A stretch of 32,352 nucleotides of DNA from a virus: positions 1-32,352 of IMG/VR virus record IMGVR_UViG_3300046004_000462; one strand, 5' to 3'. Shown piece by piece: positions 7,056 to 32,352 of this stretch. The translations under genes were made by a program, and so were the position numbers. Each line of letters begins with the position of its first letter. The first letter of the stretch is position 1. The notes beneath the pieces were generated by a model. The model was not told the DNA's origin and did no database searches. It worked only from the letters and a program-made list of their open reading frames with translations.

Positions 7056-7058
7056 ATA
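7051..7058 (+). promoter_or_regulatory. Late-promoter-like octamer CATAAATA
   Basis: CATAAATA, one mismatch from TATAAATA, overlaps the gp4 stop and lies 18 nt before the next start codon. It is followed by a strong AAGGAG ribosome binding site at 7065-7070. It could supply extra late transcription of the downstream tail genes. With one mismatch it is only a candidate. Confidence 0.35.
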
Positions 7059-7075
7059 TAGACTAAGGAGATTAA

Positions 7076-7201: not shown

Positions 7202-7779
7202 TGCCATCAAATAACGCCTTTCAGAAACTTCGTGCGCAAGTAGGAGATGGACAGAAGTCCATTGACTGGTATATGCGCAATGTCAGAGGCTTAGTTGGTG
7301 CAAGAGTTTCTGGAAACACAGTGATGCAATCTGATATCGGCAGTCTTACTAGTAAAGTAGAGATTGGCGCGATGTATATGTATTTCTATGATCCAAAGTT
7401 AAAAGCCCAACTTCCTTTCTATGATACCTTTCCCTTGGTATTGCCGTTCGGTCCAGCTAAAGGCGGCTTCTATGGTATTAACGTTCACTATTTGCCTTAC
7501 CTGTTAAGAGCAAAAGTTTTGGGTGAATTGATGAACTTTGCGGATTCCAAGACGCTTACCCCAACCAGCAAAATGCGCTTGTCATATAATCTTTTAAATA
7601 GTCTACAAACAGCAGCCGAAATTAAACCTTGCATCAAACATTATTTGACCACGCATGTAAGGTCGCAATTCATGAAAATTAATCCTGCCGATTGGAAGGC
7701 AGCGATATTCTTACCAGTTGAAGCGTTTGTTGGTGCAACTAAAGAATCCGTTTTCAGAGATACTAGGAGCAAGATTTAA
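7201..7779 (+). CDS. Conserved T4-like phage structural protein (possible head-tail or DNA end-protector role)
   Basis: 192 residues, start overlapping the previous stop (TAATG) and stop overlapping the next start (TAATG). Recognisable stretches are 'MYMYFYDPKLKAQLPFYDTFPLVLPFG' (about 58-84), 'GFYGINVHYLPYLLRAKVL' and 'IKPCIKHYLTTHVRSQFMKI', ending 'AIFLPVEAFVGATKESV'. I recognise this as a family recurring in aquatic T4-like phages, but I am not sure of its established name. A gp2-type DNA end-protector or other head-tail completion role is possible from its place after gp4. No catalytic motif is seen. Gene confidence is high; function is tentative. Confidence 0.7.
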   Translation: MPSNNAFQKLRAQVGDGQKSIDWYMRNVRGLVGARVSGNTVMQSDIGSLTSKVEIGAMYMYFYDPKLKAQLPFYDTFPLVLPFGPAKGGFYGINVHYLPYLLRAKVLGELMNFADSKTLTPTSKMRLSYNLLNSLQTAAEIKPCIKHYLTTHVRSQFMKINPADWKAAIFLPVEAFVGATKESVFRDTRSKI

Positions 7780-14089: not shown

Positions 14090-14695
14090 TTATCCTGCAT
14101 AAAATATATGATCACCAATTTTAGCTACTCTACGAAGATTCCAACCTGGATTTACATAGTCGGCATGGTAGAATAGAACATTTTTTCCTAATACGCCATG
14201 ATTAGCCCCTGCGAACAATACCTTCTCAGCCACTCTTTTGGCTTGTGCGTATTGTTGCGCACTGCGCACACTCTTCTTTCCTTCGCACACCCACGAGAAC
14301 TGACACACACGTTTTGTTCTCTGGTATACAACGGAGCATACAGATTTAGGAAACTTGGGGCTATTTACCCTATTGATAGTAACGGCCGCGACGGCCAATT
14401 TGCCTTGTGTAGACTGGTTACCAGCCTCATAATAGATGTTGTCTGCGAGACACTTCAATTCTCTATTATTTGCCAGACGAATATTTTGTGTCTGGATTCT
14501 TTGTTGTGTTACTTTACGTTGTTGTTCTTGGGCATCTTCTTTGATACCCTGGATTACTTCTCCGACGCCGAGGGAATATTCCCTTGCTTCTCTTTCGATG
14601 GCAGTTTCAGCATATGAATTAATTCCATATAAACTATAACTTAATAGTGTAATAATCGAAAGAAACTTGAAAAACTTCTTATTAAAGGAAGTCAT
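14090..14695 (-). CDS. Secreted cell-wall hydrolase, SleB/CwlJ family (probable endolysin)
   Basis: 201 residues. A signal peptide is evident: basic start, hydrophobic FLSIITLLSYSLYG, then NSYA|ETA with likely cleavage near residue 29. A charged, Gln-rich helix (about 45-75) leads to the Hydrolase_2 domain: 'LKCLADNIYYEAGNQSTQG' with presumed catalytic Glu90, 'AVAAVTINRVN', 'CQFSWVCEGK' and 'VLFYHADYVNPGW'. The SleB fold cleaves peptidoglycan as a lytic transglycosylase. A signal sequence would allow export without a classical holin; no holin is seen nearby. GGAA lies about 8-9 nt before the ATG. No convincing promoter was found in the 71 bases between this gene and the tmRNA terminator. Confidence 0.85.
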   Translation of the reverse strand: MTSFNKKFFKFLSIITLLSYSLYGINSYAETAIEREAREYSLGVGEVIQGIKEDAQEQQRKVTQQRIQTQNIRLANNRELKCLADNIYYEAGNQSTQGKLAVAAVTINRVNSPKFPKSVCSVVYQRTKRVCQFSWVCEGKKSVRSAQQYAQAKRVAEKVLFAGANHGVLGKNVLFYHADYVNPGWNLRRVAKIGDHIFYAG

Positions 14696-14790: not shown

Positions 14791-14900
14791 TACAACTATT
14801 TAGCATTCATAGGTTCTTACATCACTCATTTCATCGTATATACAGAACAGGTAATAGTTTTATTCTGTTTCGAGGGAAAACTATCAAAAACCCAATGAGA

Positions 14901-14945
14901 TTATGCGGCTAGCGCATATCCTGCAAAGGCAACGTTATCGTTTGC
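14901..14945 (-). other. tmRNA proteolysis-tag reading frame (ANDNVAFAGYALAA)
   Basis: The resume codon GCA (14945-14943) is followed by codons for ANDNVAFAGYALAA and then TAA (14903-14901). The ANDN start and LAA end are typical of alphaproteobacterial tags, and the terminal LAA is the ClpXP degradation signal. A small hairpin (TGGCA/TGCCA) upstream lies where the first pseudoknot is expected. Confidence 0.92.
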
Positions 14946-15161
14946 ATTTACGTTTTGTGGCACTTTGCCAAGCAATCAGTCTCGAACCGCCCTATTACAC
15001 GAAAATCGATATCCAGGTCACCCCCATCAACTACCAAGTGCCGAATTACATACGCAATTCCCGTGCCAAGCAAACTAAACACTTGATAGATGGTGGAGGT
15101 GCGGGGAGTCGAACCCCGGTCTTTCCGCCTTTATTGTTGATTGTCAACAACTGATAATCTA

Positions 15162-15190
15162 TATATAAGACATAAGTCCTTATTTGTCAA
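15162..15190 (-). promoter_or_regulatory. Sigma70-type promoter of the tmRNA gene
   Basis: -35 TTGACA (15190-15185), 17-bp spacer, -10 TATATA (15167-15162). Start is expected near 15155. The -35 element overlaps the final codons of the upstream nuclease gene. A hairpin ATTGTTGA/TCAACAAC-type stem follows in the 5' leader (about 15150-15132), possibly for processing. Confidence 0.85.
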
Positions 15191-17609: not shown

Positions 17610-19043
17610 TTATGAAAAGACTTTCACGCCATATTTCGCTTCAAAATCATCAGCATCTTTAAAGTTATTCACCATCGGCATACCCTTGATATTGAGACTT
17701 GTATTCAATAGCATTGGACAACCAGTTTCTTCATACCACCTACTAAGAAGGGCATATAGTCCCGGGTGTTGCTCTTTTGTCACAGTTTGGACGCGAGATG
17801 TCCCATCAGCATGAACAATAGCAGGAAACTGATCAGGATATTTACATCTTGAAGTATATTGCATATAAGGGGAGTCTTCCCATGACATTTCAAAGTAGTC
17901 TCGCGCACGTCCTGCCAGAATGACTGGAGCAAATGGGCGAAATTTTTGACGCTTTTTAATAGCATTTACTTTATCCTTAATGTCATGACCTCTTGGATCA
18001 GCTAGAAGGCTGCGATTACCTAATGCTCTAGGGCCGAATTCTGCTTGACCATTTGCAACACCTACTATACCAGTCTTATGCAATTCTGTCAAGAGTTTTT
18101 CTACCGGATATTCTCCTCCCATATCTGCGCCGAGATATGGACCCTTCCATTTCAATTTTTGTCTGTTGTTAGCTGCAATCGCACCCAAGGAACTTCCTGC
18201 ATCACCCGGATTTGGCATAATCCAAACGTTCTTGAAGTATTTTCTAGCAAGATGATTTGCAGAACAGTTTAACGCACAGCCACCCATAAGAACAAGATTA
18301 TCTTGTGCGGCATCTTTCATTTTTGCTCGTATCAGAAGTTTTTCGAATTCTTCTTCATAGACTTTTTGAGTTGCCGCAGCGACACTATAAATGTCCAGGT
18401 CTCCGTCATCTGGCCGCCACCAGCGACATCCACGATGCAGGTTCTCAGATTTCCAAAGATTTTTTACTTCATCATAATACTTTCCAGGATCACCATATGC
18501 TACCATTCCCATTAAGATATATTCGTCTTCATTGGGCTTTAACCCAATTCTATCTGTCATAGCAGAATAGAACAGACCCAAAGACTTAGGATAGTCCATA
18601 GACCATTTCTTTTTGAGTTTACTACCAGAGCATTTCCAGATTGACGCAGTATCGAATTCACCGATAGCATCAATAACAAGAGCGGTTGCATTATCATACG
18701 GCGAAGTATAGAAGCCAGCCGCGGCATGTGATTCATGATGAAATGCAAATTCTACCGGAATATCTTTTAGTCCGAAAGCAGCAAGATATTGTCTAACGCT
18801 AAATCTAACCATGCCCTGACCCGCAAGCAATCGTCTCATAGCTCTAAGTTTAGGTTTTTCATACCAGTGAATTTTTTCTGGTTTACCAAACATCAATGCC
18901 GCGCGAATTAAATCTACATTCAAGTCTTTGTCATTTTTGATACCCGAATACCGTTCAGCATGAGAAGCAAATAAAATTTCACTTCCATCAACTACTGTCA
19001 AAGATGCATCATGTGCTGCTGCGGATATACCCCATTCAATCAT
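17610..19043 (-). CDS. Carbamoyltransferase, NodU/CmcH (TobZ) family
   Basis: 477 residues, shorter than most NodU-type enzymes (about 550-600). N-terminal ASKHA-like domain: 'WGISAAAHDASLTVVDG' (4-20) and 'FHHESHAAAGFYTSPYDNATALVIDA' with the His-rich metal site (HHESH). 'LVLMGGCALNCSAN' and 'IMPNPGDAGSSLGA' follow. The C-terminal YrdC-like part has 'GQAEFGPRALGNRSLLADPR' and 'KFRPFAPVI'. All key motifs appear present. Such enzymes transfer carbamoyl from carbamoyl phosphate through an adenylate to sugar or nucleotide hydroxyls. In a phage the target could be modified DNA bases, a nucleotide or a surface sugar; the sequence does not decide. Its ATG overlaps the stop of the 34-aa gene by 8 nt. 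Confidence 0.88.
   Translation of the reverse strand: MIEWGISAAAHDASLTVVDGSEILFASHAERYSGIKNDKDLNVDLIRAALMFGKPEKIHWYEKPKLRAMRRLLAGQGMVRFSVRQYLAAFGLKDIPVEFAFHHESHAAAGFYTSPYDNATALVIDAIGEFDTASIWKCSGSKLKKKWSMDYPKSLGLFYSAMTDRIGLKPNEDEYILMGMVAYGDPGKYYDEVKNLWKSENLHRGCRWWRPDDGDLDIYSVAAATQKVYEEEFEKLLIRAKMKDAAQDNLVLMGGCALNCSANHLARKYFKNVWIMPNPGDAGSSLGAIAANNRQKLKWKGPYLGADMGGEYPVEKLLTELHKTGIVGVANGQAEFGPRALGNRSLLADPRGHDIKDKVNAIKKRQKFRPFAPVILAGRARDYFEMSWEDSPYMQYTSRCKYPDQFPAIVHADGTSRVQTVTKEQHPGLYALLSRWYEETGCPMLLNTSLNIKGMPMVNNFKDADDFEAKYGVKVFS
18064..18092 (-). promoter_or_regulatory. Possible internal sigma70-type promoter in the carbamoyltransferase gene
   Basis: TTGACA (18092-18087), 17-bp spacer, TATAGT (18069-18064). 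It would give a transcript entering the 90-aa and 182-aa genes. It lies deep in coding sequence and may be coincidence. Confidence 0.3.
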
Positions 19044-19184: not shown

Positions 19185-20540
19185 TCAATTCAATGTCTCG
19201 CAGTTTGCTCCAAAACCTATGACCCGAGTTTTTTCTGGTAACAATTTAATAAAACTTTTATACCTAGCTTGTGTTTCTTTTAGACCATAGTATCCATTGC
19301 TGAAATCAGTGCAAAATATATTAGAGATGTTAATTAATCCATTTTCAGATAGATGTGAACAAAGAGTTTCGGGAGAATTGAATAAATCACATTGAACAAA
19401 AACAACATTACTTTTTCTAAATTCTTCAATCAATTTATTAAAGTTTTCTTCTCCGCCGAAATACGAAACAGTTCGCTGATAACTCTCCAGAAAATCTTTA
19501 GTGAATTCTCCTGATTCCGTAAAAACCTGTCCACCGAGACATTTAAATGTTTTTTTATGTGGATACTCCTGCATTAATTGCAATGGATTTTTATTACTGT
19601 GCATTAGAGTTTCAATCCACTGAATACTTTTTGGATTGAAGTCATATATCACAATTTTACCATCCTGCTTCAGTTTACCCCGATGTAAAATTTCTAAAAA
19701 CTTGAACCCAGCGGCGGGAAACGCAGCGAAAGAATATTGCTTATTATTAAAATCAATTTTTATTTCTTCACTATTAAGAACCCAAATTTGATCAGAAAAG
19801 TTTCGAAGAGTATTAATAAAACGAATTTGATTGGGATTGGTAACTCCACAATTTCGTAATTCTTTTAGTGATTGTAATAGTTCATTGCCGTTATTCTCTG
19901 GGTAATAATATGTCCGCTTGGATCGTATCGTGTCATTCCAATTACCGATTTCACAATTACCACGACTAGAAGCATTAAAGTAATTCCATCCCTGCTTGGT
20001 ATGCTTCTGCGGTTTATATTCACCAGTATAGCGAATCCACAACGGTGTATAATCGTCATGGAAATTTTCTTCGCTTCTTTCTACAACCGGCAGTTCTTCA
20101 ATTTTCTGTTCCCATGCACCATAACTTGGTTTACCACATTTAATCCAGTTGCGGCTATTAACTAACACAAACTGATGATGTAGCTCGTACCAATCTTCTT
20201 TCCATTCTAAGATGTGCCCGAACGCCATGTAGTTGGGACTGGAAAGTATTTCTTCTCTGATCTCAAAGAGGATAGACATGTCATAGATGCGAACACCCGC
20301 TGCCATAAACAAGATATTCTTGTAAGTTCCGTGATACTTTGACATACCATCATCGATACTATCACATTCTAAAATTGATAATGTATTTTCGCGCCGCGCC
20401 AGTTGGTTAAACCTGAGCGCATAAAACTTAGTATACTCAACCATTCTTTTTGCAAGTTCTTTATTTTTAATCGTCTCAGTCGGAAAAATGCAAATTGCTA
20501 AATCTACATCGTTGACAAAATTACCTTGCACGATATTCAT
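19185..20540 (-). CDS. Unknown 451-aa protein with methyltransferase-like segment
   Basis: I do not recognise the full protein. The first ~150 residues have 'DLAICIFPTETI', 'NILFMAAGVRIYDMSILFEI' and 'YMAFGHILEW', reminiscent of a glycosyltransferase-like or nucleotide-binding fold. The C-terminal part has 'FAAFPAAGFKFLEILHRGKLKQDGKIVIYDFNPKSIQWIETL' (about 271-312), which looks like motifs I and II of a class I SAM-dependent methyltransferase, then 'VVFVQCDLFNSPE' and 'ISNIFCTDFSNGYYG'. The start overlaps the oxygenase stop by ATGA. It is the last gene of the radical SAM operon, so it probably shares that pathway. Confidence 0.55.
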   Translation of the reverse strand: MNIVQGNFVNDVDLAICIFPTETIKNKELAKRMVEYTKFYALRFNQLARRENTLSILECDSIDDGMSKYHGTYKNILFMAAGVRIYDMSILFEIREEILSSPNYMAFGHILEWKEDWYELHHQFVLVNSRNWIKCGKPSYGAWEQKIEELPVVERSEENFHDDYTPLWIRYTGEYKPQKHTKQGWNYFNASSRGNCEIGNWNDTIRSKRTYYYPENNGNELLQSLKELRNCGVTNPNQIRFINTLRNFSDQIWVLNSEEIKIDFNNKQYSFAAFPAAGFKFLEILHRGKLKQDGKIVIYDFNPKSIQWIETLMHSNKNPLQLMQEYPHKKTFKCLGGQVFTESGEFTKDFLESYQRTVSYFGGEENFNKLIEEFRKSNVVFVQCDLFNSPETLCSHLSENGLINISNIFCTDFSNGYYGLKETQARYKSFIKLLPEKTRVIGFGANCETLN

Positions 20541-21214
20541 AGTATTTCTCGTAAAAGTTCAGCGGGATTTGTAGTAAGTTTACCATGAATAATAATATGG
20601 TAACGATATTCGTCGCTATCGTTGATAACAGCGTGTTTCTTACCAATGTCAAGTAAAAAACCAGAACCTTGCTTAAACGGAACAACGCCATGTCCTTCTA
20701 TCACAAACTCACAACCTTCTGGGTTATTAATCGCAAAATTAAAAGGTCCGAAGATTCTTCCGATACCATCTGTATGTGGCATAATATATCCCTGAGGACT
20801 CATTCTCATGATACGAATTCTACCGTAATCTTTAAATGGTAGCGAATCAATTAGGTTTTTTGTCAATGGTAATTTCTCACAGACAGAAGTCCATTTATAG
20901 TTTGCTTCTTCTTCGCTGCTAAATCCATACCGATCATAATTTTCAGTTTTGTCGTAATCGATACCGTGCACCGTTAGCGAGTACCAACCCTCGTGACCAT
21001 AACTTTCAATTTTATCTTTTGCTCTGTGTTCTACAAAAAGTTCGCTAACAGCAGATAACTCTGCTATAATTTCATTGTAGTTATGAGTTCCTGTTGCGTT
21101 TACTTGCGACCAGGGCCAATCTGTTTCCCACAGATTATTCGGAAACGTATTGGGATAATTCCATTGCTTCTTTTTGTTTTCTGTAAGAAAGTTGATCAGT
21201 TCTGTGTTAGACAC
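20537..21214 (-). CDS. 2OG-Fe(II) oxygenase, aspartyl/asparaginyl hydroxylase-like
   Basis: 225 residues if started at GTG 21214, two bases after the upstream stop. The frame also opens at TTG 21262 but contains no ATG near the start, so I prefer GTG. The C-terminal double-stranded beta-helix is clear: 'RIRIMRMSPQGYIMPHTDG' with the H-x-D iron ligands (His147, Asp149), 'NFAINNPEGCEFVI', 'GSGFLLDIGKKHAVIN' with the third ligand His194, then Arg204 for 2-oxoglutarate (DEYRYHIIIHG). The family hydroxylates protein side chains or small molecules. The substrate is unknown; a link to the flanking radical SAM enzymes is likely. Translational coupling on both sides. Confidence 0.82.
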   Translation of the reverse strand: MSNTELINFLTENKKKQWNYPNTFPNNLWETDWPWSQVNATGTHNYNEIIAELSAVSELFVEHRAKDKIESYGHEGWYSLTVHGIDYDKTENYDRYGFSSEEEANYKWTSVCEKLPLTKNLIDSLPFKDYGRIRIMRMSPQGYIMPHTDGIGRIFGPFNFAINNPEGCEFVIEGHGVVPFKQGSGFLLDIGKKHAVINDSDEYRYHIIIHGKLTTNPAELLREIL

Positions 21215-21216
21215 AA

Positions 21217-22173
21217 TTATATCTTTTCTTTGCTTATCATAAAATCTGTTCCACAAAAGCAAAGTTTCTGGTTACAAATAACTCCCTTGGTTGGAAGTTG
21301 GTAATCCGCATGGTCGTTGATATGAAACATATATCCGCCCTGAAGACAATTCGCAACCTGGACATGTCCAGACCAAGAGACAAACAAACTTTCCAATCCT
21401 GCTGCACAATACCATCCAGCAAACTTATTATCACCTTCAGTAATATATTTATTTGACTGTCCATTATATTCTACCGAACCATCGTCGAAATAAAAGTCAG
21501 ACATCATGGACGAGTATTTGAAGTTTGGATTTACAATCGACGGATCATAATTCATTTCTTTTCTTGGAATTGACATTAGAATACTTTCCTGCTCGGGCGT
21601 ATAGGTTTCTCCAACGTTTGTTGCTCTCGCTTGTTCAGGAAGAACTCTTACTGCTTCTACTGCAATCTCAGGAATTTCACAACAACGTTGATACATTTCA
21701 TATGCTTTGTCCCAATATCTAGAATCCATCATGATTCTAACAGTTACTAAAGTTTGCTTTGATGCAACCTTTACCTTCTCTAAAAATTCTGGGTCTTCAT
21801 AACTTGGATGATAACTAAAGCATATATAACTAAATTTTTGGGCAATTTTTTCCCAATATTTTATAGGTTTTACACCATTTGTAGTTAAACCAATAGTATT
21901 ATTCTTACTCGTATAGAAAATGTCTACCAATTCTTTAAAGAACGGACTCAGTGTCGGTTCACCGCCGCTGATAGTGCAATGTATCTTTGGGTAGTGGTCA
22001 ATGAGTCGATAGATAAATTCTTTTGCACGCTCCCATTCATAGTGGTGATTCTTACCAGAATTCAATATTGGTGGACAATACGCGCAACGATTATTACAAA
22101 TATTATTAATAATCCACGTAAGCAACATTACATTTTCTGTTTGCTGTATTTTTATTAATTTCTTATCCATCAT
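21217..22173 (-). CDS. Radical SAM enzyme with Cys-rich (SPASM-like) C-terminus
   Basis: 318 residues. The 4Fe-4S/SAM motif is 'NNICNNRCAYCPP' (CxxxCxxC, about Cys26/Cys30/Cys33), followed by 'CTISGGEPTLSPFF' (the GGE SAM-contact motif) and 'IGLTTNG'. The C-terminal third has several cysteines: 'GWYCAAGLESLFVSWSGHVQVANCLQGG' and 'ICNQKLCFCGTDF', suggesting one or two auxiliary Fe-S clusters as in SPASM/twitch enzymes. Such proteins modify peptides, nucleosides or carbohydrates by radical chemistry. The start overlaps the 315-aa gene stop by four bases. Substrate unknown. Confidence 0.85.
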   Translation of the reverse strand: MMDKKLIKIQQTENVMLLTWIINNICNNRCAYCPPILNSGKNHHYEWERAKEFIYRLIDHYPKIHCTISGGEPTLSPFFKELVDIFYTSKNNTIGLTTNGVKPIKYWEKIAQKFSYICFSYHPSYEDPEFLEKVKVASKQTLVTVRIMMDSRYWDKAYEMYQRCCEIPEIAVEAVRVLPEQARATNVGETYTPEQESILMSIPRKEMNYDPSIVNPNFKYSSMMSDFYFDDGSVEYNGQSNKYITEGDNKFAGWYCAAGLESLFVSWSGHVQVANCLQGGYMFHINDHADYQLPTKGVICNQKLCFCGTDFMISKEKI

Positions 22174-23117
22174 AAAAATTCAATTTCTTTTAGTTCTACG
22201 AAAGTGCTAAACACATGTTCATCCCAATGTCGCTTTACGCTTCCTGCTTTTACACTGTAATCCGCAATTGTTCCGCCGTAGCGAGATATAAAATATTCAT
22301 CGATTATAATTTTTCCAAGTTTAAATCTACCATAAGTCAGTTTATTCAGATCGTCAATGGGAACTTTCTTTTGTAGATTCTCTGGTAACTCAGAATACAT
22401 CTTTTCCAGTTGTCTTATTTCCCAACCATCACTATCTGGACCAAAATTAATCCAAGTTTCTGCTGCGAATCTTTCCTGGGGTCTTACTTGTTCACGTTCG
22501 ATTACTTCTAAGTCTTTGTCGGCGACAACCTTCATCCAATCTTTACCAAGGGTGTTATAACCAAGATAAACTTCTCCCCACTGTAGCGTTGGTGTTAACC
22601 ATAGTTTATCGCGCTCGAGGATAGGAAGATGCAATCCTTGTGGATAATAATCATAAAGAAGTGCCATATTCGGAAAGTCGCCCTTCTTGATGTATAGCAA
22701 ATCTTCATGAAGGTGGATAAGTTCGTTCAGTTCCAAAAAGTCTTCGTGCAACTCTTGCGACCACCAATTGGCCGTTTGCATCAAATCCTCAAATCTATCG
22801 CCATACCGCTCAAACTCTTCATGCAAATAATTGAGTTCAGGTGTAGTAAGTTCTTCGATTTCTTCATACAATGGTAGCGGTTCATCGTAAACAGAATTAA
22901 TTCTGTTGAGACAATCAGTCAGTCTAGTTCTAACTTTAGAAATCTGACTATAGGAGAGATTAGTGAATCGAGTATTAATGTAAGAATCAGGAGTTTGTTG
23001 GTTTTTCTTTGTAATCTCGACCCATCGATTAACAAGATCCGTGGGATACAATGCAAAATGCAATTCGTGTTCTTTACCACAATCATCTAGGAAAACCAGT
23101 CTCAAGAGTGTTGCCAT
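22170..23117 (-). CDS. Unknown 315-aa protein in the radical SAM operon
   Basis: No family recognised with confidence. The N-terminal ~180 residues are acidic and helical with many His and Glu ('YEEIEELTTPELNYLHEEFERYG', 'HEDFLELNELIHLHEDLLYI'). These resemble a four-helix carboxylate- or His-containing bundle. The second half has 'LWLTPTLQWGEVYLGYNTLGKDW' and 'FKLGKIIIDEYFISRYGG'. One base separates it from the upstream radical SAM gene, and it overlaps the next one (ATGA), so it belongs to the pathway and may be a partner or substrate-binding protein. Confidence 0.6.
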   Translation of the reverse strand: MATLLRLVFLDDCGKEHELHFALYPTDLVNRWVEITKKNQQTPDSYINTRFTNLSYSQISKVRTRLTDCLNRINSVYDEPLPLYEEIEELTTPELNYLHEEFERYGDRFEDLMQTANWWSQELHEDFLELNELIHLHEDLLYIKKGDFPNMALLYDYYPQGLHLPILERDKLWLTPTLQWGEVYLGYNTLGKDWMKVVADKDLEVIEREQVRPQERFAAETWINFGPDSDGWEIRQLEKMYSELPENLQKKVPIDDLNKLTYGRFKLGKIIIDEYFISRYGGTIADYSVKAGSVKRHWDEHVFSTFVELKEIEFL

Positions 23118-23118
23118 A

Positions 23119-24381
23119 TTAAATACCTTTCAATAATTTGTAGTAATCACCATATACTTCTGAAAATTTAATCGGACGCATCAGTTCTAGTGTATCGATG
23201 TAATTCATCAAATCGGGGAACTTGTCGGAATCATCTCTACTGGTCATATATTCAAACTGATATTTAATTCTATTAATCCATCGCGGATGATTAACCAGAT
23301 CAGGATATTCTTCCCACCTCTTGTTAATAATCTCTTTAACGTTCCGCGGTAAAACTGTTGTGCTAAGATATTGGGGCCAATGAGTAGTACCTACGGAAAA
23401 TAGTCCCTCGTTGCGTTTGCAGATTTTTTTCCATTTACGATCTATAATTGCTTGTGCAAAATCAGGTAGATTGTAGATGTTCATTGCGTGAACAGTAGCA
23501 AGAATATTAACAACGATATTATCTGCCGTTTCGTCTAACCGATCAAGATTCTTTGAGATTACTTCCCATGATGCTGGCCAACGAACAAACTCGTTTCTAG
23601 ATCCCCAATCATCAAGACTTACCATCAATTCAACTAATTTGAATTGACTCCAGAGATCAATAAACTTTTCGCTTAGTTGAGTTCCGTTTGTATGATAGCG
23701 CAGTTCAATATTCTTACTATGACCGCTTTCTACAAGTTTTGTGATGAAACGTTCATGCCCCTTGATTAGTAGAGGTTCTCCCCCACCAAAAATAATGTGG
23801 CGAATATCACCCATAAACTCATCTAGTGCGTCTTGGGTTTCTAGTTTCTCAAACCAGTCAAAACAATCGGTATTAGCAATACTTTTTGATTTAAAATCCC
23901 AATCACTTTTTGCACCAGGACTAGTCAGGGTTTGTGCAAGTTTCTTACTATCATTCAACCACTTACTGCTATCACGAGGACGACACATAACACATTGAAG
24001 ATTGCATGTATTACCAATGCGCAAATCCAAAGTAATTGGGTTAAAGTCTACGCTACCATCTGGATTTGTAAGAGAGATTATGCGATTAATTTTTTCTGCG
24101 CCCAACTTGCGCTTCCACATATCATTCTCGATTACACGGTGACTCTTGATTCCACTTGCTTCTTCTTTCCAACAAGCATTGCATTGAGGAGGTTGTTCTC
24201 CGTTGATAAACTTCAGTCTTGCCCGTTTAAACTGCTCACTGTTCCAAATTTCTTGGGGAGTTGAGTCATTGAAGTTTAAATTTGCCTCAGGTGAAGCAAC
24301 ACAGCAAAGTGGAACCTTGCCGTCATTCCAACTTGCAAGATGTATCCATGGCTGGATACAGAAATTTTTATTATCAATCAT
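23119..24381 (-). CDS. Twitch-domain radical SAM protein 1
   Basis: 420 residues. An N-terminal Cys cluster 'NFCIQPWIHLASWNDGKVPLCCVA' and 'PPQCNACWKEE' (within the first 70 residues) probably binds an auxiliary cluster. The radical SAM motif 'GNTCNLQCVMCRP' (CxxxCxxC) follows, with 'IIFGGGEPLLIKGHERF' and 'YHTNGT'. Placing the twitch-like cluster before the SAM domain is typical of a phage group annotated as twitch-domain radical SAM proteins. The reaction is unknown. The ATG overlaps the end of the second such gene by 8 bases. Confidence 0.85.
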   Translation of the reverse strand: MIDNKNFCIQPWIHLASWNDGKVPLCCVASPEANLNFNDSTPQEIWNSEQFKRARLKFINGEQPPQCNACWKEEASGIKSHRVIENDMWKRKLGAEKINRIISLTNPDGSVDFNPITLDLRIGNTCNLQCVMCRPRDSSKWLNDSKKLAQTLTSPGAKSDWDFKSKSIANTDCFDWFEKLETQDALDEFMGDIRHIIFGGGEPLLIKGHERFITKLVESGHSKNIELRYHTNGTQLSEKFIDLWSQFKLVELMVSLDDWGSRNEFVRWPASWEVISKNLDRLDETADNIVVNILATVHAMNIYNLPDFAQAIIDRKWKKICKRNEGLFSVGTTHWPQYLSTTVLPRNVKEIINKRWEEYPDLVNHPRWINRIKYQFEYMTSRDDSDKFPDLMNYIDTLELMRPIKFSEVYGDYYKLLKGI

Positions 24382-25663
24382 ATAATTTTGCCAAACGTGT
24401 ATCTAAAACTGATATACTTTCTTTGCGCTCTTCATCAAGTGCGTTAGTATATATACGAAATCTATTTACCATAATTTCCCAATCTTTAAGACGAGAATTC
24501 TTAAAAAACCCTACGATGCCTTGAAGAGAATTTTTAGTCATTTCATTCTGAATGGTATTTACTTCACAATAATCTTCAATGAGTTCCACAGCTTCTTTGC
24601 GTAAATCGTCGGGTAAGATTAATGCGCTTAGATGCACCGGGTGATGGTTGATTAGAAAATCAATAAAAATATCCTTAGAATATTTCTCACGTAAATCGTC
24701 TACCCAAGTAAGGATATTTACAACATCAAATGCATTGTATACTTGAATTGTTGGCGTGATACCAAGATGAACATTTGACATTTGTGCAAATTTTTCAATA
24801 TTCTTAGAAACTTGCGACCATTTACTTGGCGCTCTAATATACTCGGTCACTGCCCCAATACCATCAATGCTGGCATTAATATTAACGGCATCAAATTGTG
24901 AGATTAGTTCAAAGAACTTTGGATTAATATTTGTGCAATTAGTATTAAAGAATAGAGTTATATCTCTGCGACCCTGACGAATGCACTCTTCCATAAACTT
25001 ATAGTTATTTTTAATTAGAGTGGGTTCGCCACCTGTCATGTAAACTTTTTTCAATGTTGGAATCAGCGAAATAACTTGATCCCAAAGAATATTGTGATCA
25101 AACCAAGGTTGGTCCTCCATAACTTTTTCTGGGAATTTACCAAAGGTCTTTTGCCACACATCAGCATAATCGGGTCGGCGAGTAACTAAATCAGTATGCT
25201 CTTTTACGATCTGACTGCTATTCCAGGGGTTACACATTCTACACTTTAAATTACACAAATTACCTAAACGCAGGTCGAGATATACGGGAGCAGTTTCAAC
25301 AAACCCATCTGCTTCTCCTGCAGATTCAATAATCTGCTTCAGTTCTTCTGTGCCAAGACGTTGTGACCATTCCCGCAAACTATGCTGGCGATTACTCATC
25401 TTATTATCGTCTTCTTGCTGATAACAAACTGCACATCCAGGAATAGATTCAGCATTAATCATTTTTCTTCGAATATCTCGAATACTTTCTGAGTTCCAAG
25501 CATCTTCAATAAAATTATCTCGACATGTATATGCCTCACCTGTATCTTTTGAAACAACATTTGCACGACCTTTGACCATACAACAATACCGCACAGTAGT
25601 GTCTGTGTTAATCATTGTGCTTACAAAAGGTATTGCGCACATACTTTTATTATTTTCGAACAT
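24374..25663 (-). CDS. Twitch-domain radical SAM protein 2
   Basis: 429 residues, a paralogue of the next gene in the operon. The Cys-rich N-terminus reads 'MCAIPFVSTMINTDTTVRYCCM' and 'PGCAVCYQQEDD'. The SAM motif is 'GNLCNLKCRMCNP', with 'VYMTGGEPTLIKNNYKF' and 'LFFNTNCTN'. The pair shares architecture but differs widely in sequence, suggesting two substrates or steps. Start ATG has CGGAACC upstream. A weak late-type octamer (TATAAATG, minus strand 25712-25705) lies ~42 bases upstream but overlaps coding sequence. Confidence 0.85.
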   Translation of the reverse strand: MFENNKSMCAIPFVSTMINTDTTVRYCCMVKGRANVVSKDTGEAYTCRDNFIEDAWNSESIRDIRRKMINAESIPGCAVCYQQEDDNKMSNRQHSLREWSQRLGTEELKQIIESAGEADGFVETAPVYLDLRLGNLCNLKCRMCNPWNSSQIVKEHTDLVTRRPDYADVWQKTFGKFPEKVMEDQPWFDHNILWDQVISLIPTLKKVYMTGGEPTLIKNNYKFMEECIRQGRRDITLFFNTNCTNINPKFFELISQFDAVNINASIDGIGAVTEYIRAPSKWSQVSKNIEKFAQMSNVHLGITPTIQVYNAFDVVNILTWVDDLREKYSKDIFIDFLINHHPVHLSALILPDDLRKEAVELIEDYCEVNTIQNEMTKNSLQGIVGFFKNSRLKDWEIMVNRFRIYTNALDEERKESISVLDTRLAKLYD

Positions 25664-25703
25664 GGTGGTTCCGATTAGTTGATAAATTGTTCAAAGTCTC
25701 TAT

Positions 25704-26267
25704 TCATTTATAACCCACTGCCATGTATCTATAAAAATGTCCACATTTCAACATTCCTGCATACTGTGGTTCTTTGATATTGTTGATTGTCAAAAAATGT
25801 GCTAGATCATCAGCAAGACGAACATGCTCAGGATTAACTAGATTATTTCCTTGGACGATATATTTAGTACCACTAGGAATAGAGTTCCACCAAGCATCAT
25901 AAACTTCTTGCGTCACATGCTCGGAACTGGTGTTGATAACTAGATCAGGGTGTGGATGATTGAGTGGCATACCATTTTGCATGTTGTGCTGACGAAATGT
26001 GATATCGTGATAATACTCATCGATAGCAGCAAACACCTTCTTACATTCAGAGTCCATGTCAGTAGTTAGTATTCGTGCATCAGGAAACTTGTGGGCAATA
26101 AACTGCGCAAGAACTCCATACCATCCACCAAAAATTACGATAGATCTATCAAGAGGAGTTACATGTTCCAGTAACCATTTCTTACTCTCTATCTGACTTG
26201 GCCAAAAGTTCTCAGAGAATCTGTATGCATTCTCTGGATTATTACGGATGTATTCCATCCAATTCAT
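25704..26267 (-). CDS. SAM-dependent methyltransferase-like protein
   Basis: 187 residues from ATG 26267 (MNWMEYIRNN), 13 bases after the upstream stop. An upstream in-frame ATG at 26342 would overlap the previous gene by 62 bases and is less likely. Class I fold features are motif I 'IVIFGGWYGVLAQFIAHKFP', the acidic strand end 'ILTTDMDSECKKVF', and 'PDLVINTSSEHV', a motif IV-like strand. The GGWYG loop is seen in a phage/bacterial methyltransferase-like group of unknown substrate. It precedes the radical SAM pair and may use or make part of the same product. Confidence 0.7.
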   Translation of the reverse strand: MNWMEYIRNNPENAYRFSENFWPSQIESKKWLLEHVTPLDRSIVIFGGWYGVLAQFIAHKFPDARILTTDMDSECKKVFAAIDEYYHDITFRQHNMQNGMPLNHPHPDLVINTSSEHVTQEVYDAWWNSIPSGTKYIVQGNNLVNPEHVRLADDLAHFLTINNIKEPQYAGMLKCGHFYRYMAVGYK

Positions 26268-26280
26268 TACAACATCAAAA

Positions 26281-26682
26281 TTAACCACGGCGCATTTTCG
26301 CAATCTCCAAAATTTGTTCGTCATTGATAACAGGTACAGCATTACTCTTATGTAGAACGCTGATACCCTTAATAAGTGTGCCCGTATAGACTTTTTCTTT
26401 ACGAGTATAGTTTACACCAATACCATCTCCAGAAGGATATTTTTGTCGATGGTCACTGACTTCATATTTAGGTAGAGGTGTGCCACGCAAGTTAGGTTTA
26501 AATCTACCTTGCCGATATTGCACATACTCGTCAAAGGTCTTAGTCGAAGAACCAAGGCGTTTCATCTGCTTATTGTAATCTACCCAATCTTGCGCATATC
26601 TACTAGTCACGCCTTTGTTTGTAGTTTTGCGCTTTTTAGTATTTGTCGTAGTGTAAGCTGGACCCAACAAATGCATAGTCAT
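26281..26682 (-). CDS. Hypothetical basic protein, 133 aa
   Basis: ATG at 26682 (MTMHLLGPAYTTT) with AAGGAG 6 nt upstream; the longer frame to 26715 lacks this support. The product is basic: 'NTKKRKTTNKGVTSRYAQDWVDYNKQMKRLG' and 'FKPNLRGTPLPKYEVSDHRQKYPSGDG', ending 'ILEIAKMRRG'. No family is recognised with confidence. The Lys/Arg content could suit nucleic acid binding. It is the first gene after a sigma70-type promoter and leads into the methyltransferase/radical SAM operon. Confidence 0.7.
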   Translation of the reverse strand: MTMHLLGPAYTTTNTKKRKTTNKGVTSRYAQDWVDYNKQMKRLGSSTKTFDEYVQYRQGRFKPNLRGTPLPKYEVSDHRQKYPSGDGIGVNYTRKEKVYTGTLIKGISVLHKSNAVPVINDEQILEIAKMRRG

Positions 26683-26991: not shown

Positions 26992-27128
26992 TGAACCCCG
27001 AAGAACTAGAGCAACACTTCCGTCAGATGGAGAAGGAACTATTCGAACAAGAAGTTACTTCGAAGTCGCCCGATACACGCCGTCCCAATCTTTCGGAGGT
27101 GATACCTGAAACTCTTCAATACGGCTAA
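26991..27128 (+). CDS. Small hypothetical protein, 45 aa, overlapping the cyclase gene
   Basis: TAATG coupling to the previous gene and an AAGGAAGG site 8 bases upstream support translation. Product is acidic at the N-terminus ('NPEELEQHFRQMEKELFEQE') and polar after that. Its last 74 bases overlap, on the opposite strand, the end of the adenylyl cyclase gene. No family is recognised. Confidence 0.55.
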   Translation: MNPEELEQHFRQMEKELFEQEVTSKSPDTRRPNLSEVIPETLQYG

Positions 27129-29145
27129 TCATCGAGTCGTAATAATCAGATAGATTACCTTGCCAGCACTTCTTTAAGTCGCTGGCAAATTTTTTGGCAA
27201 CTTCCCAATTACCTTCGCGATAAAATGTAAGGAACTTCTCATGTTGTTTCTCGCCTGGATGGTCAAAGGTTTCCAAAACTGTAAAAATCTTAGCTGGCAG
27301 GGTCTTACCTTTAACTGCAATCAAATCAAGTTCAACTACTTGGTATACATCCCTAACCAGTTCGGCCGTTTGTGGTCCGACGATGAGTTTGACGCCATAA
27401 GACTTGGTTTGACCTTCCAGACGAGCAGCCAGATTAACGCCATCCCCCAAGCAAGTATAGTCAAAACGCTGAGTGCTGCCCATATTACCAACAACCACAG
27501 TGGCAGTGTTAATACCAAGACCCATCCCAAAAGCGGGAATGCCTTCTCTTTGAACTTCTTCATTGAAAGTCTCCAAATCTTTTAGCATCTGGAAGGCCGT
27601 TTGAACTGCATCCAACGCATGTTTATTGTTATCAAGAGGCGCATTCCAGAATGCCATCTGTGCATCACCGATATACTTATCCAGTGTGCCGTTATTTTCA
27701 AGAATTGCTTTTGTCATAACCGTCATGTAACGATTCATGATTGACGTTAGACCTTGGACATCTTCTCCGTAGTGTTCAGAAATTGTAGTAAAGCCTCGAA
27801 CGTCAGTGAACATAATCGAAAGCTCTCTTGATTCTCCGCCGAGTTTCAAGAGGTCTGGTTGTCTTTGCAATCTCGCAACCAGATCTGGACTCAGATATGT
27901 GCCAAACTGTTTCTTAATCTGTTGTTTCTGTAGGAACTCACTGATAAACTTAGCAGTGTAGATATGCATATAGATTAATGCAATGGCAAACAAATTAAAC
28001 GAAACATCGAATAGAATATTCTGCGTTTGAAATAAATATGTCGGTAAGTATAGATATCCGCCCAGTAGAATTACAATATATACTATTGAGAATCTAAAAC
28101 GAGAAAGAACAATCAATGCCAGAGCAAGACCCAGAAAAGCCGCAAGATCCGCAATTTCTGACCAATTCGGAATCGACACAGAGTCACCATTCAGGAGAGT
28201 TTCTAGTAGACTGGCCTGTAACTGATGGGGATGTTGGGCACCTGAAGGAGTCGCTACAGGGTTCGCTATACCAGCAGCAGTTACGCCAACAATTACAATT
28301 TTCCCATCAAGACGAGGAATATCGTCACCTACTTCAACAGATGGAAATACGTAATTGGGATTAACAAATACTCTACCATATTCGTCTGTTTTAATTGTTT
28401 CAAAAGAAGGAATTCGTAATGCTTCAACCCCAGTCTGATTTATCTTGGCTTGATACGAAGAGTCTCCTGCAGCTACACGCAGCATCTCTATCGCAAATGC
28501 GGGATAGTATTCGCCTGATGACCCAGATAGAAGAGGAACTCGCCTTACAACCCCATCAGGCTCGGGTAGGGTTGACGTTATCCCAACACCGACTGCGGCT
28601 TCTTGAAGAGGTGCGATATTACTTAGAACGCATGGATATTGAGGAAGAAATTCAGTTGCTTCTCCATCGCCGATTACGGCAACGCCTGTTCTCCGAATTG
28701 TCGCACTTGCCTGAGGTGAACCTTGGCCAGATATCGATCCAGCAATACAGTCAGCGGAAACAGTCTGACTCAGGACTACTGGATACTGACTTAGGGTATC
28801 CGCAAGAACTCGATCAGTCCCCATCCGATCAGACTCAGAATAAAGTATAGTGCTGCCAACAAGAGCAGCCCCTCGACTATAAAGGTCATTAATAATTTGA
28901 GCATGGACCTCACGTGGAAATGGCCACTGACCATATTTCTCAATTGCTTTCTCCCCGATATTGACGGTTACAATTTGTTCAGATTGCGTCGGTGAACCGA
29001 GCATCAAATAATCATAAAACTTCAATCTCGCGGATTCAACCAAGTAAGGGTTTGATAATTTTACTACTAACAATAACGCAAAAGTAATCAGTGCCAACCA
29101 AGGCGAAAGAAGAGCTTTCTTAGTTTTTTGTATAAGAGTATCCAT
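27055..29145 (-). CDS. CHASE2-domain membrane adenylyl cyclase (class III)
   Basis: 696 residues. A first membrane helix (about 16-30) precedes a CHASE2 sensor (about 35-325: 'KFYDYLMLGSPTQSEQIVTVNIGEKAIEKYGQWPFPRE', 'GKIVIVGVTAAG'). Three more membrane helices follow (about 331-350, 353-372, 379-398), then a cyclase domain (about 435-625). Catalytic residues appear intact: metal Asp448 (FTDVRGF) and Asp494 (KYIGDAQMAFW), adenine-selecting Lys490 and Asp562 (FDYTCLGD), transition-state Asn571 and Arg575 (NLAARLE). It should convert ATP to cAMP in the cytoplasm in response to an external signal. Its start overlaps the curlin-repeat gene by 26 bases. The pattern FecR gene next to CHASE2-cyclase is also known in bacteria. 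A phage-encoded copy is unusual. Confidence 0.92.
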   Translation of the reverse strand: MDTLIQKTKKALLSPWLALITFALLLVVKLSNPYLVESARLKFYDYLMLGSPTQSEQIVTVNIGEKAIEKYGQWPFPREVHAQIINDLYSRGAALVGSTILYSESDRMGTDRVLADTLSQYPVVLSQTVSADCIAGSISGQGSPQASATIRRTGVAVIGDGEATEFLPQYPCVLSNIAPLQEAAVGVGITSTLPEPDGVVRRVPLLSGSSGEYYPAFAIEMLRVAAGDSSYQAKINQTGVEALRIPSFETIKTDEYGRVFVNPNYVFPSVEVGDDIPRLDGKIVIVGVTAAGIANPVATPSGAQHPHQLQASLLETLLNGDSVSIPNWSEIADLAAFLGLALALIVLSRFRFSIVYIVILLGGYLYLPTYLFQTQNILFDVSFNLFAIALIYMHIYTAKFISEFLQKQQIKKQFGTYLSPDLVARLQRQPDLLKLGGESRELSIMFTDVRGFTTISEHYGEDVQGLTSIMNRYMTVMTKAILENNGTLDKYIGDAQMAFWNAPLDNNKHALDAVQTAFQMLKDLETFNEEVQREGIPAFGMGLGINTATVVVGNMGSTQRFDYTCLGDGVNLAARLEGQTKSYGVKLIVGPQTAELVRDVYQVVELDLIAVKGKTLPAKIFTVLETFDHPGEKQHEKFLTFYREGNWEVAKKFASDLKKCWQGNLSDYYDSMISRIEEFQVSPPKDWDGVYRATSK

Positions 29146-30574
29146 TACATGGTCCAGTCGTGCATGTTATTTCCATTTTCGCAGAGTCGGCGGCAGTCAA
29201 GTTATTTTGCGTGACAGTTACACCAATTCCAGGACTATTTAGTAAAAGTTGAAATTGCTTCATAGAAGAACCCAATTGAGTAACAGATGCAGTAACTCCA
29301 CCAAACGGTGCGCTGATATCTAGAAAATGGTTAGCAGTTCCCTGTTGTAAGGTGCTGATATTATTAGAGTTTCCTAAAACACTGATAAACAACGATTTTC
29401 CTCCAGCATCTTTTTGTTGTGCGGAGATTTGATTGCCAAGACCATTGGTGACAATCTCGGCGTATTTGCCTGCATATTGTTGTGTCAGTGATACGATGTT
29501 GTTGTTACCAGTAACAGAAACTTCTGCCAAGTTCTTACCAATTGGAGTTGTTGTCGTTCCTTGGTTGATAGTAACGCTGTTGCCACTACCATTGATAGTC
29601 ATTGCTTGTGCGCCATTGACACCACGGATTTGGTTCTGCTTAGAGAACTGTTCAATGTAAACTGAATTGTTAGAACCCGTTGCATTGATATAGATGGAGT
29701 TTTGTGTAATCGCATTTGTTTGATTAATCTTCAATGATTGATTAGCACTAATTGTTGCTAATGGAAATGTTGGAGCAGGAGGTTCAGGCGCAGGAGGTGG
29801 AGGCGCAGAAGAACCAGCATTAGGTTGAACTGGCGCAAAGGTTGTTCCATTGAGTGAAGTTGTACCCTGCATCTGATCGATAAACAGAATTGGCGACAAT
29901 GCGGTATCACCTAGATTGAATGAGGCAAATCCTAACAGATAGTTTCCATCAGTAGGAACTGTGAATACGGCGACTTGCCAACCAGTAGCACCGTAAGATC
30001 CAACTGAATAGTTACCAGTGCCTTCGTTTGTAAATCCAAGAAGCGCAAAGTTTTGGGTTTGTCCATTAATCGTTGGGGTTCCTGGGCCACCAGTCAATGT
30101 AATCATAGAACCATCATTGTATGGAACATAATCGGTAGAAACATACTGCCAAGCATAACTGTATGTCGTGCCTGCTTGTAGAAATATTGTTCTACTGATA
30201 GATGTGGCATTCGTAGGATTCATATTACCATTTGCATAGATGGTATTTCTAATCGAAGTAATTGTAGAACCTGTCAACCCCAAAGTAGTCATAGCACCGT
30301 CAAATCCAGGAGAACCACCACCTGCTTGAAGTGAAATCATATATGAACCATATGGCGTAACAGTCCAGCATTTACCATCACCTGGACAGTAGTTAGTCAT
30401 ACCAGTTGTAACTTGTGCGCCAGAACCACTATCACTCCACGAAGTTCTTGCGGCAGTTGAACCGTTACTCACCGTCCAACCAGTATAGTTACCATTCTCG
30501 AAACCATAGTTCGTAACTTGCGCGAATGCAGGCATCGTAAAGAACAGGAGGAAGAGAGCAATTAGTTTTTTCAT
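29120..30574 (-). CDS. Secreted protein with beta-sandwich domain and curlin-type repeats
   Basis: 484 residues. A clear signal peptide (KKLIALFLLFFTMPAFA|Q) is followed by an aromatic/Gly-rich beta domain (about 20-245: 'NYGFENGNYTGWTVSNGS', 'TGWQVAVFTVPTDGNYLLGFASF'). This resembles carbohydrate-binding-like or PEP-CTERM-type sandwich domains. A Pro-rich linker (PPPPAPEPPAP) leads to a C-terminal repeat region with 'ATGSNNSVYIEQ', 'GSGNSVTINQG', 'VTGNNNIVSLTQQ' and 'GLGNQISAQQ'. The G-x-x-N-x5-Q spacing is curlin-like (CsgA/CsgB). It probably forms or decorates an extracellular fibre. Overlaps the FecR stop by four bases. Confidence 0.78.
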   Translation of the reverse strand: MKKLIALFLLFFTMPAFAQVTNYGFENGNYTGWTVSNGSTAARTSWSDSGSGAQVTTGMTNYCPGDGKCWTVTPYGSYMISLQAGGGSPGFDGAMTTLGLTGSTITSIRNTIYANGNMNPTNATSISRTIFLQAGTTYSYAWQYVSTDYVPYNDGSMITLTGGPGTPTINGQTQNFALLGFTNEGTGNYSVGSYGATGWQVAVFTVPTDGNYLLGFASFNLGDTALSPILFIDQMQGTTSLNGTTFAPVQPNAGSSAPPPPAPEPPAPTFPLATISANQSLKINQTNAITQNSIYINATGSNNSVYIEQFSKQNQIRGVNGAQAMTINGSGNSVTINQGTTTTPIGKNLAEVSVTGNNNIVSLTQQYAGKYAEIVTNGLGNQISAQQKDAGGKSLFISVLGNSNNISTLQQGTANHFLDISAPFGGVTASVTQLGSSMKQFQLLLNSPGIGVTVTQNNLTAADSAKMEITCTTGPCNGYSYTKN

Positions 30575-31716
30575 CTCGCACCCGATTCTTGTATCACAGT
30601 AATGTTACCCTGTGGTCTACCAGTTCCCGATGTTGTCCACTTATCATCCATAAAGTTATAGACATCAACTAGTCCATTTTGCACCGAAACGACTTGCGCT
30701 TCGTTACCCTTCTCTAACCAGATAGTAACTGCCTGTTGTCTGTCCTCAGATAAACGAGTATACACCCATCCGACCTGAACATTCTTTTTGAATATCGGGG
30801 AAACATTAGTGTAGTAAGTTTCTGCTGGAATGTTGCCTTCATTAAATTCAGCAAAAACGTCTAGTAGTTCTTGCGGTGTTGCTGGTCGACGCATTGTCGC
30901 AGCGACTTGTTCGACGTTATCATTTGTGCCACCATCTGGATCTTTATTGTCATCCGATGCTGCTTTAGAAGGATTGGTAAATTTCTTTAAACTATCTCTA
31001 GCAAGTTGAAGCAAACTTTGACCGTCATCTGTTTCCAGCGAAACAAGTTGAACGTTGTTGTCCAATGCCTTCATCAAAGGATTAACGATTACTGGTGGAG
31101 CAGGAGGAGCAAAGTTGTTTTCTACAACTGTTGCTTGGAATGGTTGGTTTAACGTAACTACACCAGATGCGGTGATAACTTCGATCATGCCTGTTGGACA
31201 TTCGGCAGTTTGTTTTGTAATGTCTAATTCGTTATAGCATTCGGGAACCAGCACGACCGTAGAACGACCTGCTTCATCAACCGACATAACGAAGTCTGTG
31301 CCACGAACTGCAATGGTAGCAGTTGGTGTGCGAATGTTTACGCCTCGTGGGTTTGTTTTCGCGACTTTGCCCGATGCGTATCTGACGGTGCCAAGGGCGA
31401 CCCGAAGTCCAAGTTTGCCCTTCGTCTTCCCTCCCCCATCATACACAAAGTCGTCCACAAGAAGGCGAGAGTTTTCTGTAATATTAACTGTAGTCGAGTC
31501 ATTAAATGTAATCCTAAATCTACCTTGAGAGTTGGTAGAAATTGTGTCCATCTTTTCTACACCAGCACCTTTAGATGCTACTGTAGTCTTGGCGCCACGC
31601 TTAATAGCACCACCTCCTCTGAAATCTGTTATCGACCCAATATCCGCAAAGGCAGGAGTCGATAACAGAAATATCAGTAGAAGATTAGTGACCAGTTTTG
31701 ATATTAAACGTGCCAT
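30571..31716 (-). CDS. Secreted FecR-domain protein
   Basis: 381 residues from ATG at 31716, chosen because a signal peptide starts there (ISKLVTNLLLIFLLSTPAFA|D) and GGGA lies upstream. The longer frame from 31761 would hide the signal. The FecR domain (about 24-160) shows 'GSITDFRGGGAIKRG', 'ISTNSQGRFRITFNDSTTVNI' and the hallmark 'RTPTATIAVRGTDFVM'. A Pro linker and a C-terminal half with no known domain follow. Unlike classic FecR anti-sigma regulators, there is no inner-membrane or cytoplasmic sigma-binding part. Proteins like this often neighbour CHASE2-cyclases. The start overlaps the upstream curlin-like gene by 32 bases. Confidence 0.85.
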   Translation of the reverse strand: MARLISKLVTNLLLIFLLSTPAFADIGSITDFRGGGAIKRGAKTTVASKGAGVEKMDTISTNSQGRFRITFNDSTTVNITENSRLLVDDFVYDGGGKTKGKLGLRVALGTVRYASGKVAKTNPRGVNIRTPTATIAVRGTDFVMSVDEAGRSTVVLVPECYNELDITKQTAECPTGMIEVITASGVVTLNQPFQATVVENNFAPPAPPVIVNPLMKALDNNVQLVSLETDDGQSLLQLARDSLKKFTNPSKAASDDNKDPDGGTNDNVEQVAATMRRPATPQELLDVFAEFNEGNIPAETYYTNVSPIFKKNVQVGWVYTRLSEDRQQAVTIWLEKGNEAQVVSVQNGLVDVYNFMDDKWTTSGTGRPQGNITVIQESGAR

Positions 31717-32352
31717 TTGATCCCACACTATTAATATTGATAACAGTTTCAGATGCACCATACTGTTGGGTTGTTACAGTGTTTAGCGAACCTGTCAGGT
31801 TTACATATAGTGAGTGACCGAATGTTCCACCGAGATCGGTTTGTGTAACATCAAAGTCATTATAGTTGCCTGTCACCAGAATAGTTTGTGACGCATTTGG
31901 TGATAGTGCATCCATGTTTACTGTGTTATTGTTGCCGTTGAAATCCATCGAGTTACGGATATTAGCACCCGAACCACGGAAAACAAACGAGTTGTTGTTA
32001 CCAGTAAACTTGGCATTCATGTCGAGTTGATTACATGAGGAGTCAGACACTTCTGTTCCACAACGAATAGTAGCCGTGTTCAAATCGCCAATTTGACGAA
32101 TTGTTACATCGGCGATTCCTTGGGCTCCTGTGTCGGATACGACACCCATATAAAGTTGGTTTCCATTGCCTGTTTGTATTGCGATAACGCTCTGGTTATC
32201 ACCACGTAGGTAAATAGGATCAAGAGTAGAACCGATAACGTTAGCAGTACCAGTTTGAACGATGTTAACATCTACGTTACCCCCTTCTTGATCAATATAT
32301 ACCTTGTTTGTAGTTGCAACAGTATTCGCTTCTGTTTCGTTTGGCGAAGTTG
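31685..32352 (-). CDS. Curlin-repeat protein (5' end outside window)
   Basis: The frame is open from the window edge, giving at least 221 residues ending at TAA 31687-31685. Internal ATG at 32149 is not the start, since the same repeat pattern continues upstream. Repeats include 'VDVNIVQTGTANVIG', 'QSVIAIQTGNGNQLYMG', 'DVTIRQIGDLNTATI', 'KFTGNNNSFVFRGSG' and 'LNTVTTQQYGAS'. Strand-turn-strand units with conserved Gln, Gly and Asn match the curlin (CsgA/CsgB) pattern. The product is probably an exported amyloid-like or fibre subunit. It is the first visible gene of the curlin/FecR/cyclase operon; the genes before it are not in the window. Confidence 0.72.
   Translation of the reverse strand, partial: TSPNETEANTVATTNKVYIDQEGGNVDVNIVQTGTANVIGSTLDPIYLRGDNQSVIAIQTGNGNQLYMGVVSDTGAQGIADVTIRQIGDLNTATIRCGTEVSDSSCNQLDMNAKFTGNNNSFVFRGSGANIRNSMDFNGNNNTVNMDALSPNASQTILVTGNYNDFDVTQTDLGGTFGHSLYVNLTGSLNTVTTQQYGASETVININSVGSNGTFNIKTGH

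Follow-up and report, generated by a model that had tools for sequence, protein, structure and literature searches.

Why would a T4-like phage carry, side by side, genes for curlin-repeat proteins, a FecR-domain protein and a CHASE2-adenylyl cyclase? The question is raised by the window analysed here, a stretch of 32,352 bases that makes up the entire IMG/VR contig IMGVR_UViG_3300046004_000462. An initial annotation had described four overlapping genes at positions 27055-32352, coding for two exported curlin-repeat proteins, an exported FecR-domain protein and a membrane-bound cyclase, and had read them as an envelope-sensing system coupled to cAMP output. Our analysis confirms that the contig belongs to a T4-like phage and that the four genes overlap, on the minus strand, at its right end (Table 1). 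The gene content also stands, with three corrections: curlin protein 1 is truncated by the contig edge, a later start of the FecR-domain protein is likelier than the one upstream of it, and the module runs past the contig into csgG and csgF. All Pfam matches in the module genes exceed the curated cut-offs, and pairwise dN/dS values of ~0.02-0.2 indicate that these genes are under purifying selection. A chimeric assembly, which had been named as a possible refutation, is ruled out because 36 loci match the contig on either side of the junction where the cyclase gene meets the neighbouring phage genes.

Table 1. Positions of the module genes and of their domains in the window.
Feature	Position	Strand	Basis
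CHASE2-adenylyl cyclase, 696 aa	27055..29145	-	Pfam; hydropathy; PHROG_35576 1e-230
Class III cyclase domain, residues 440-615	27301..27828	-	Pfam Guanylate_cyc 1.7e-17; catalytic residues; conservation
CHASE2 domain, residues 23-344	28114..29079	-	Pfam CHASE2 1.1e-39
Curlin-repeat protein 2 (signal peptide, N-terminal adhesin-type head, proline-rich linker, curlin repeats)	29120..30574	-	Alignment; model; strand pattern
Curlin-type repeats of curlin 2, ~residues 295-456	29207..29692	-	Alignment, strand pattern, model
N-terminal head of curlin 2, ~residues 19-250, CBM-like	29825..30520	-	Foldseek; Pfam of homologues
Exported FecR-domain protein	30571..31716 (start likelier than 31761)	-	Pfam FecR 1.5e-13; homologue alignment; hydropathy, start position
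C-terminal strand GNITVIQ of the FecR protein, curlin-strand-like	30589..30609	-	Same ending type in homologues
FecR (PF04773) domain, residues 72-172 from the 31761 start	31246..31548	-	Pfam
Curlin-repeat protein 1, C-terminal 221 aa, 5' end lost at contig edge	31685..32350	-	Pfam Curlin_rpt 2.1e-4 (above cut-off); order in relatives

Elsewhere in the window, a permuted (two-piece) tmRNA gene (14810-15186, minus strand) matches the alphaproteobacterial tmRNA model, as in Methylophilales phage Melnitz, a hint that the phage infects, or once infected, an alphaproteobacterium. Three radical SAM genes (two with SPASM), an Asp/Asn beta-hydroxylase gene, a methyltransferase-like gene and uncharacterised genes occupy 20537-26342 on the minus strand, with a gene for a Nol-like carbamoyltransferase beside them (17610-19043).

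To place the four genes in their full context, we examined 80 cyclase-anchored and 35 FecR-anchored IMG/VR loci, several contigs being in both sets. Wherever the contig allows, the order is csgF-csgG-curlin-FecR-(curlin)-cyclase, so that the search for the same gene order in related phages proposed with the initial annotation is answered positively. In these relatives csgF and csgG lie directly upstream of the gene for curlin 1, i.e. beyond the edge of the window; CsgF is recognised in close relatives by Pfam (2.8e-17) together with a CsgG homologue, and a complete homologue of curlin 1 is found at 6634-7458 of one relative (L005). In a csgG-anchored sample of 54 distinct loci with downstream room, FecR is present in 54, the cyclase in 51, and a cyclase without FecR in none. 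Curlin 2 is absent from about one third of the cyclase-anchored contigs with room, and in these contigs the frame of FecR and that of the cyclase either overlap, by up to 53 nt, or are separated by no more than 35 nt (stop to stop). Based on this close spacing, FecR and the cyclase look like the core pair. The module is also present on contigs of 259, 361 and 328 kb (L050, L078 and L083), which may be jumbo phages.

The combination itself was already known. Zaragoza-Solas 2020 (PMC7029224) described the csgF/csgG part and proposed "sibling capture", and Wittmers 2022 (PMC9599517) described the pelagiphage module including its curlins, FecR and adenylyl cyclase, and reported its expression in metatranscriptomes; csg genes also appear in Buchholz 2022 (PMC9004378). 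We find the same operon in two isolated phages, Pelagibacter phage HTVC008M (gp014-gp019) and Melnitz (genes 99-104). Thus, the window adds one member to a published family. It shares gene order and protein families with the pelagiphage T8SS module, with curlin-FecR-curlin-cyclase in the window and csgF and csgG added by its near relatives, and the cyclases of the known members are ~40% identical to that of the window, but it belongs to a distinct contig clade with ~40% GC. What the present analysis adds is the swapping of adhesin heads, the tracing of the sensor pair to loci for adhesins and the enrichment of a late promoter, none of which we met in the module literature as covered at keyword level and with few subscription journals.

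The cyclase has the anatomy of a CHASE2 class III enzyme. Hydrophobic segments near residues 9-36 and 328-395 flank the CHASE2 domain, and the catalytic domain holds the metal, substrate and transition-state residues. The catalytic residues claimed to be intact are indeed found in the window, all six of them (D448, K490, D494, D568, N571 and R575); across 16 phage cyclases five are invariant and N571 nearly so. We take D448 and D494 to be the metal-binding aspartates, K490/D568 the ATP-type Lys/Asp pair and N571/R575 the Asn/Arg pair, and from the K490/D568 pair the enzyme is predicted to use ATP. In the Melnitz cyclase (L002 12013-14064), unlike that of the window, Ser replaces the Asn of the NxxxR motif, so that its activity may be reduced. 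A cyclase with intact catalytic residues and under purifying selection invites the idea, also voiced in the initial annotation, that the phage acts on host metabolism by way of cAMP and CRP-like regulators; the curli genes would then be secondary. The neighbourhoods speak against it: in the csgG-anchored sample the cyclase is never seen without FecR, and 3 of the 54 loci keep the rest of the module but lack the cyclase, which makes it look accessory. Direct support for altered host metabolism did not emerge. A receptor encoded by the phage can be rejected for the 8 phage records searched for the cyclic-nucleotide-binding family PF00027, including the complete HTVC008M and Melnitz genomes, all of which lack it. 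Any cAMP output should, therefore, act on a host protein.

The FecR-domain protein is free-standing, ~380 residues long and without RTX repeats. Its hydrophobic N-terminus is signal-like and, by hydropathy, no further membrane segment follows. Two papers (PMC9599517, PMC7029224) suggest a function in uptake, with CsgG importing macromolecules or siderophores and FecR sensing iron, and the name of the FecR domain and the width of the CsgG pore agree with this suggestion. However, Pfam detects no FecIRA-type anti-sigma domain in the protein, in which the signal-like N-terminus runs straight into the FecR domain; neither an ECF sigma factor (FecI) nor a TonB receptor (FecA) is seen among the module genes or the scanned window proteins; and the bacterial FecR domains found next to the closest cyclases belong mostly to adhesins. 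The label "iron regulator" is therefore not supported, and we consider nutrient or iron uptake very improbable. The structural comparison points to adhesins as well. In a model of moderate confidence (mean pLDDT 62), built from IMG/VR homologue rows only, the best PDB match is 5ix9, a "cell surface anchoring domain" from an antifreeze adhesin (TMt 0.81, probability 1.0, E 0.017), and the same chain ranks first, weakly (E 0.028), with the FecR sequence profile. In addition, 40 of 41 distinct FecR C-termini end in a curlin-like strand of the N-x-I/V-x-I/V-x-Q type while the region before it is divergent; the protein might dock on or cap a curlin fibre.

The origin of the sensor pair can be followed further in bacteria. 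The best 80 bacterial relatives of the cyclase are 32-37% identical to it over nearly the full length and come almost exclusively from Alphaproteobacteria; in the cyclase tree, phage and bacterial sequences are parted by a fully supported branch. Among these 80, 72 loci have upstream room, and a FecR-domain gene lies directly upstream on the same strand in 26, in agreement with the earlier statement that such pairs exist in bacteria, and elsewhere in the fetched stretch in a further 13. In several of the remaining loci the contig ends within a long frame that resembles an adhesin. Most of the bacterial FecR proteins scanned are large and repetitive (cadherin, Big_9, VWA or RTX repeats), with genes for type I secretion (HlyD, ABC and TolC-type) in their vicinity. 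For instance, in Bradyrhizobium (L131), Roseibium (L147) and Microvirga (L172), a FecR domain is encoded beside a full-length related CHASE2-cyclase (33-37% identical), as in the phage, but near the N-terminus of a giant RTX/cadherin-repeat adhesin with type I secretion genes close by, whereas the phage has a separate small FecR protein, not fused to such an adhesin, beside curli genes. Other clusters follow a similar theme. A Campylobacterota CHASE2-cyclase cluster pairs a FecR-domain protein with a CHASE2 sensor (PMC9239204) and the Burkholderia BiofilmReg operon encodes a FecR-domain protein with a CHASE2 sensor (PMC5192318); unlike the phage module, neither has a reported curlin or csg gene, and the Burkholderia output is a histidine kinase rather than a cyclase.

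How general the FecR-CHASE2 association is depends on the sample. In eight Alphaproteobacteria chosen for holding a related cyclase (G007-G014), 14 of 14 CHASE2 genes have a FecR gene within ~13 kb, with only 1-6 FecR genes in each genome. In a wider sample of Pseudomonadota (L257-L276), a narrow FecR profile finds FecR near CHASE2 in only 9 of 20 cases, and FecR as a universal CHASE2 partner is rejected on this count. The tendency of CHASE2 genes to have a FecR gene nearby suggests that FecR proteins feed CHASE2 sensors in general.

The curli half of the module has a different background. Among 385 alphaproteobacterial genomes, five CsgF loci were found; they share csgF, csgG and curlins with the phage module but, in contrast to it, none has FecR or a cyclase within ~10 kb. 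Alphaproteobacterial curli operons are reported to lack csgE (PMC3521004). Conversely, nine genomes holding near cyclases lack CsgF. Within this limited sampling, no single bacterial operon is found from which the whole module could have been taken.

Both exported subunits carry curlin repeats. In curlin 1 they are recognised by Pfam. Curlin 2 of the window has no Pfam match of its own, and its repeats are recognised in three other ways: it contains 14 (overlapping) matches to the curlin-strand pattern compared with 2.6 +/- 1.9 in shuffled sequences, it aligns with phage relatives of which several match Curlin_rpt, and structure prediction renders the repeats as regular beta strands, mostly with pLDDT 70-91, in a model of only moderate overall confidence (mean pLDDT 68). 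The proline-rich linker is a feature of the clade of the window. The N-terminal head of curlin 2 varies. Among 45 distinct homologues, Pfam finds Curlin_rpt in 22, F5/8 type C in 7, PA14 in 5 and GLEYA in 2. The window head is modelled with a likeness to CBM61, CBM27 and CBM4 and to the adhesin domain of the gingipain Kgp (Foldseek probability ~1.0, E only ~3e-3 to 2e-2), whereas HTVC008M has PA14 and Melnitz no recognised head. Thus, phage curlin 2 proteins bear PA14, F5/8 type C or CBM-like heads or none: unrelated heads of adhesion type are swapped on a conserved repeat body. For PA14, binding of sugars has been demonstrated in RTX adhesins (PMC6650083); a text search of PMC9599517 returns no mention of this domain. 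The idea of fibre formation put forward in the initial annotation gains support from these heads.

When the operon is expressed bears on two of the alternatives. Of 34 distinct regions covering the 1.5 kb upstream of csgF, 20 contain the T4 late-promoter sequence TATAAATA in sense orientation, whereas base composition predicts 3.7 and the antisense strand has 2; in many of these regions its position clusters near -560 to -630. In the window itself, the same motif precedes the gene for gp32 and the gene for the tail tube cap. Judged by these promoter sequences, the operon is probably expressed late in infection. The signal argues against an early takeover role; taken together with the considerations above, reprogramming of the host by cAMP is distinctly unlikely.

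Late expression agrees with a function in the timing of lysis, the argument made in Buchholz 2022 (PMC9004378). Here, CsgG/CsgF would form a gated outer-membrane pore that helps to open the cell late, with a small pair of proteins acting as holins and the cyclase as timer. This pair (PHROG_18771) is a tandem of ~90-residue proteins with one apparent membrane segment each. It immediately precedes csgF in 76 of 83 loci (e.g. L005 4652-5346) and has a weak similarity to a holin family (E ~0.002 at best). In five loci, however, the pair is downstream on the opposite strand, and the window has a separate cell-wall hydrolase gene (Hydrolase_2; 14090-14695, minus strand) apart from the curli module, a probable endolysin. 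A lysis timer also leaves the conserved curlins, the exchangeable adhesin-type heads, FecR and the CHASE2-cyclase unexplained, and we regard this explanation as unlikely. For podophages, PMC9599517 reports a histidine kinase upstream of csgF; in this connection, MW574966 has no annotated curli genes within positions 1-45000 of its 59769. In the myophage relatives that position is occupied by the PHROG_18771 pair, which is too short for a kinase and is possibly what was called a histidine kinase in podophages.

We suggest that the module is best read as a late surface-adhesin system with a sensor that reports the status of the adhesin by cAMP, a reading to which we assign a probability of about 0.55. 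In this model, the infected cell would acquire a type VIII (curli-type) secretion pore made of CsgG and CsgF. Curlin 1 would be exported through this pore as the fibre, and curlin 2 would be the adhesive subunit with its sugar-binding-type head. The FecR protein, which is akin to the FecR domain of bacterial adhesins, would report from the periplasm to CHASE2 on the state of pore or fibre, and the cyclase in the inner membrane would respond by making cAMP, acting on a host receptor. CHASE2 cyclases are known to take input from the outer membrane in S. meliloti, in which the outer-membrane barrel protein NsrA mediates signalling to CyaD1, CyaD2 and CyaK (PMC13001267). The benefit would come late, either by sticking the infected cell or its debris to cells or particles, or by masking the surface from competing phages; the blocking of superinfection envisaged earlier would be a possible benefit of such an adhesin with a sensor. 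The original reading of envelope sensing with cAMP output thus fits the anatomy, conservation and selection of genes that form one conserved operon, but it missed the csgF/csgG pore beyond the contig edge.

Four observations weigh against the adhesin-with-sensor reading. Clumping of Melnitz-infected cells was not seen in PMC9004378, although curlin 2 of Melnitz has no recognised head. About one third of the cyclase-anchored contigs with room have no curlin 2 at all. A phage receptor for cyclic nucleotides is missing from the 8 records. Finally, the models of FecR and curlin 2 are only moderately confident, with PDB matches at E near 0.02 and 0.003.

Going one step further, we consider it possible, at a little short of even odds, that phages joined two machines that are separate in the sampled bacterial loci, namely curli secretion and the FecR/CHASE2-cyclase sensor found with giant adhesins in Alphaproteobacteria. 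The cyclase would then read the secretion state of a virus-encoded, adhesin-headed amyloid with exchangeable sugar-binding heads and, by extension, FecR would be a common periplasmic input of CHASE2. Public data contain the module on many phage contigs, and phages of abundant marine bacteria are among its carriers. With adhesin heads on curlin 2 and a sensor traced to adhesin loci, the vague annotation "curli plus regulators" can be replaced by a testable model, which also suggests what the widespread CHASE2 sensors may be detecting.
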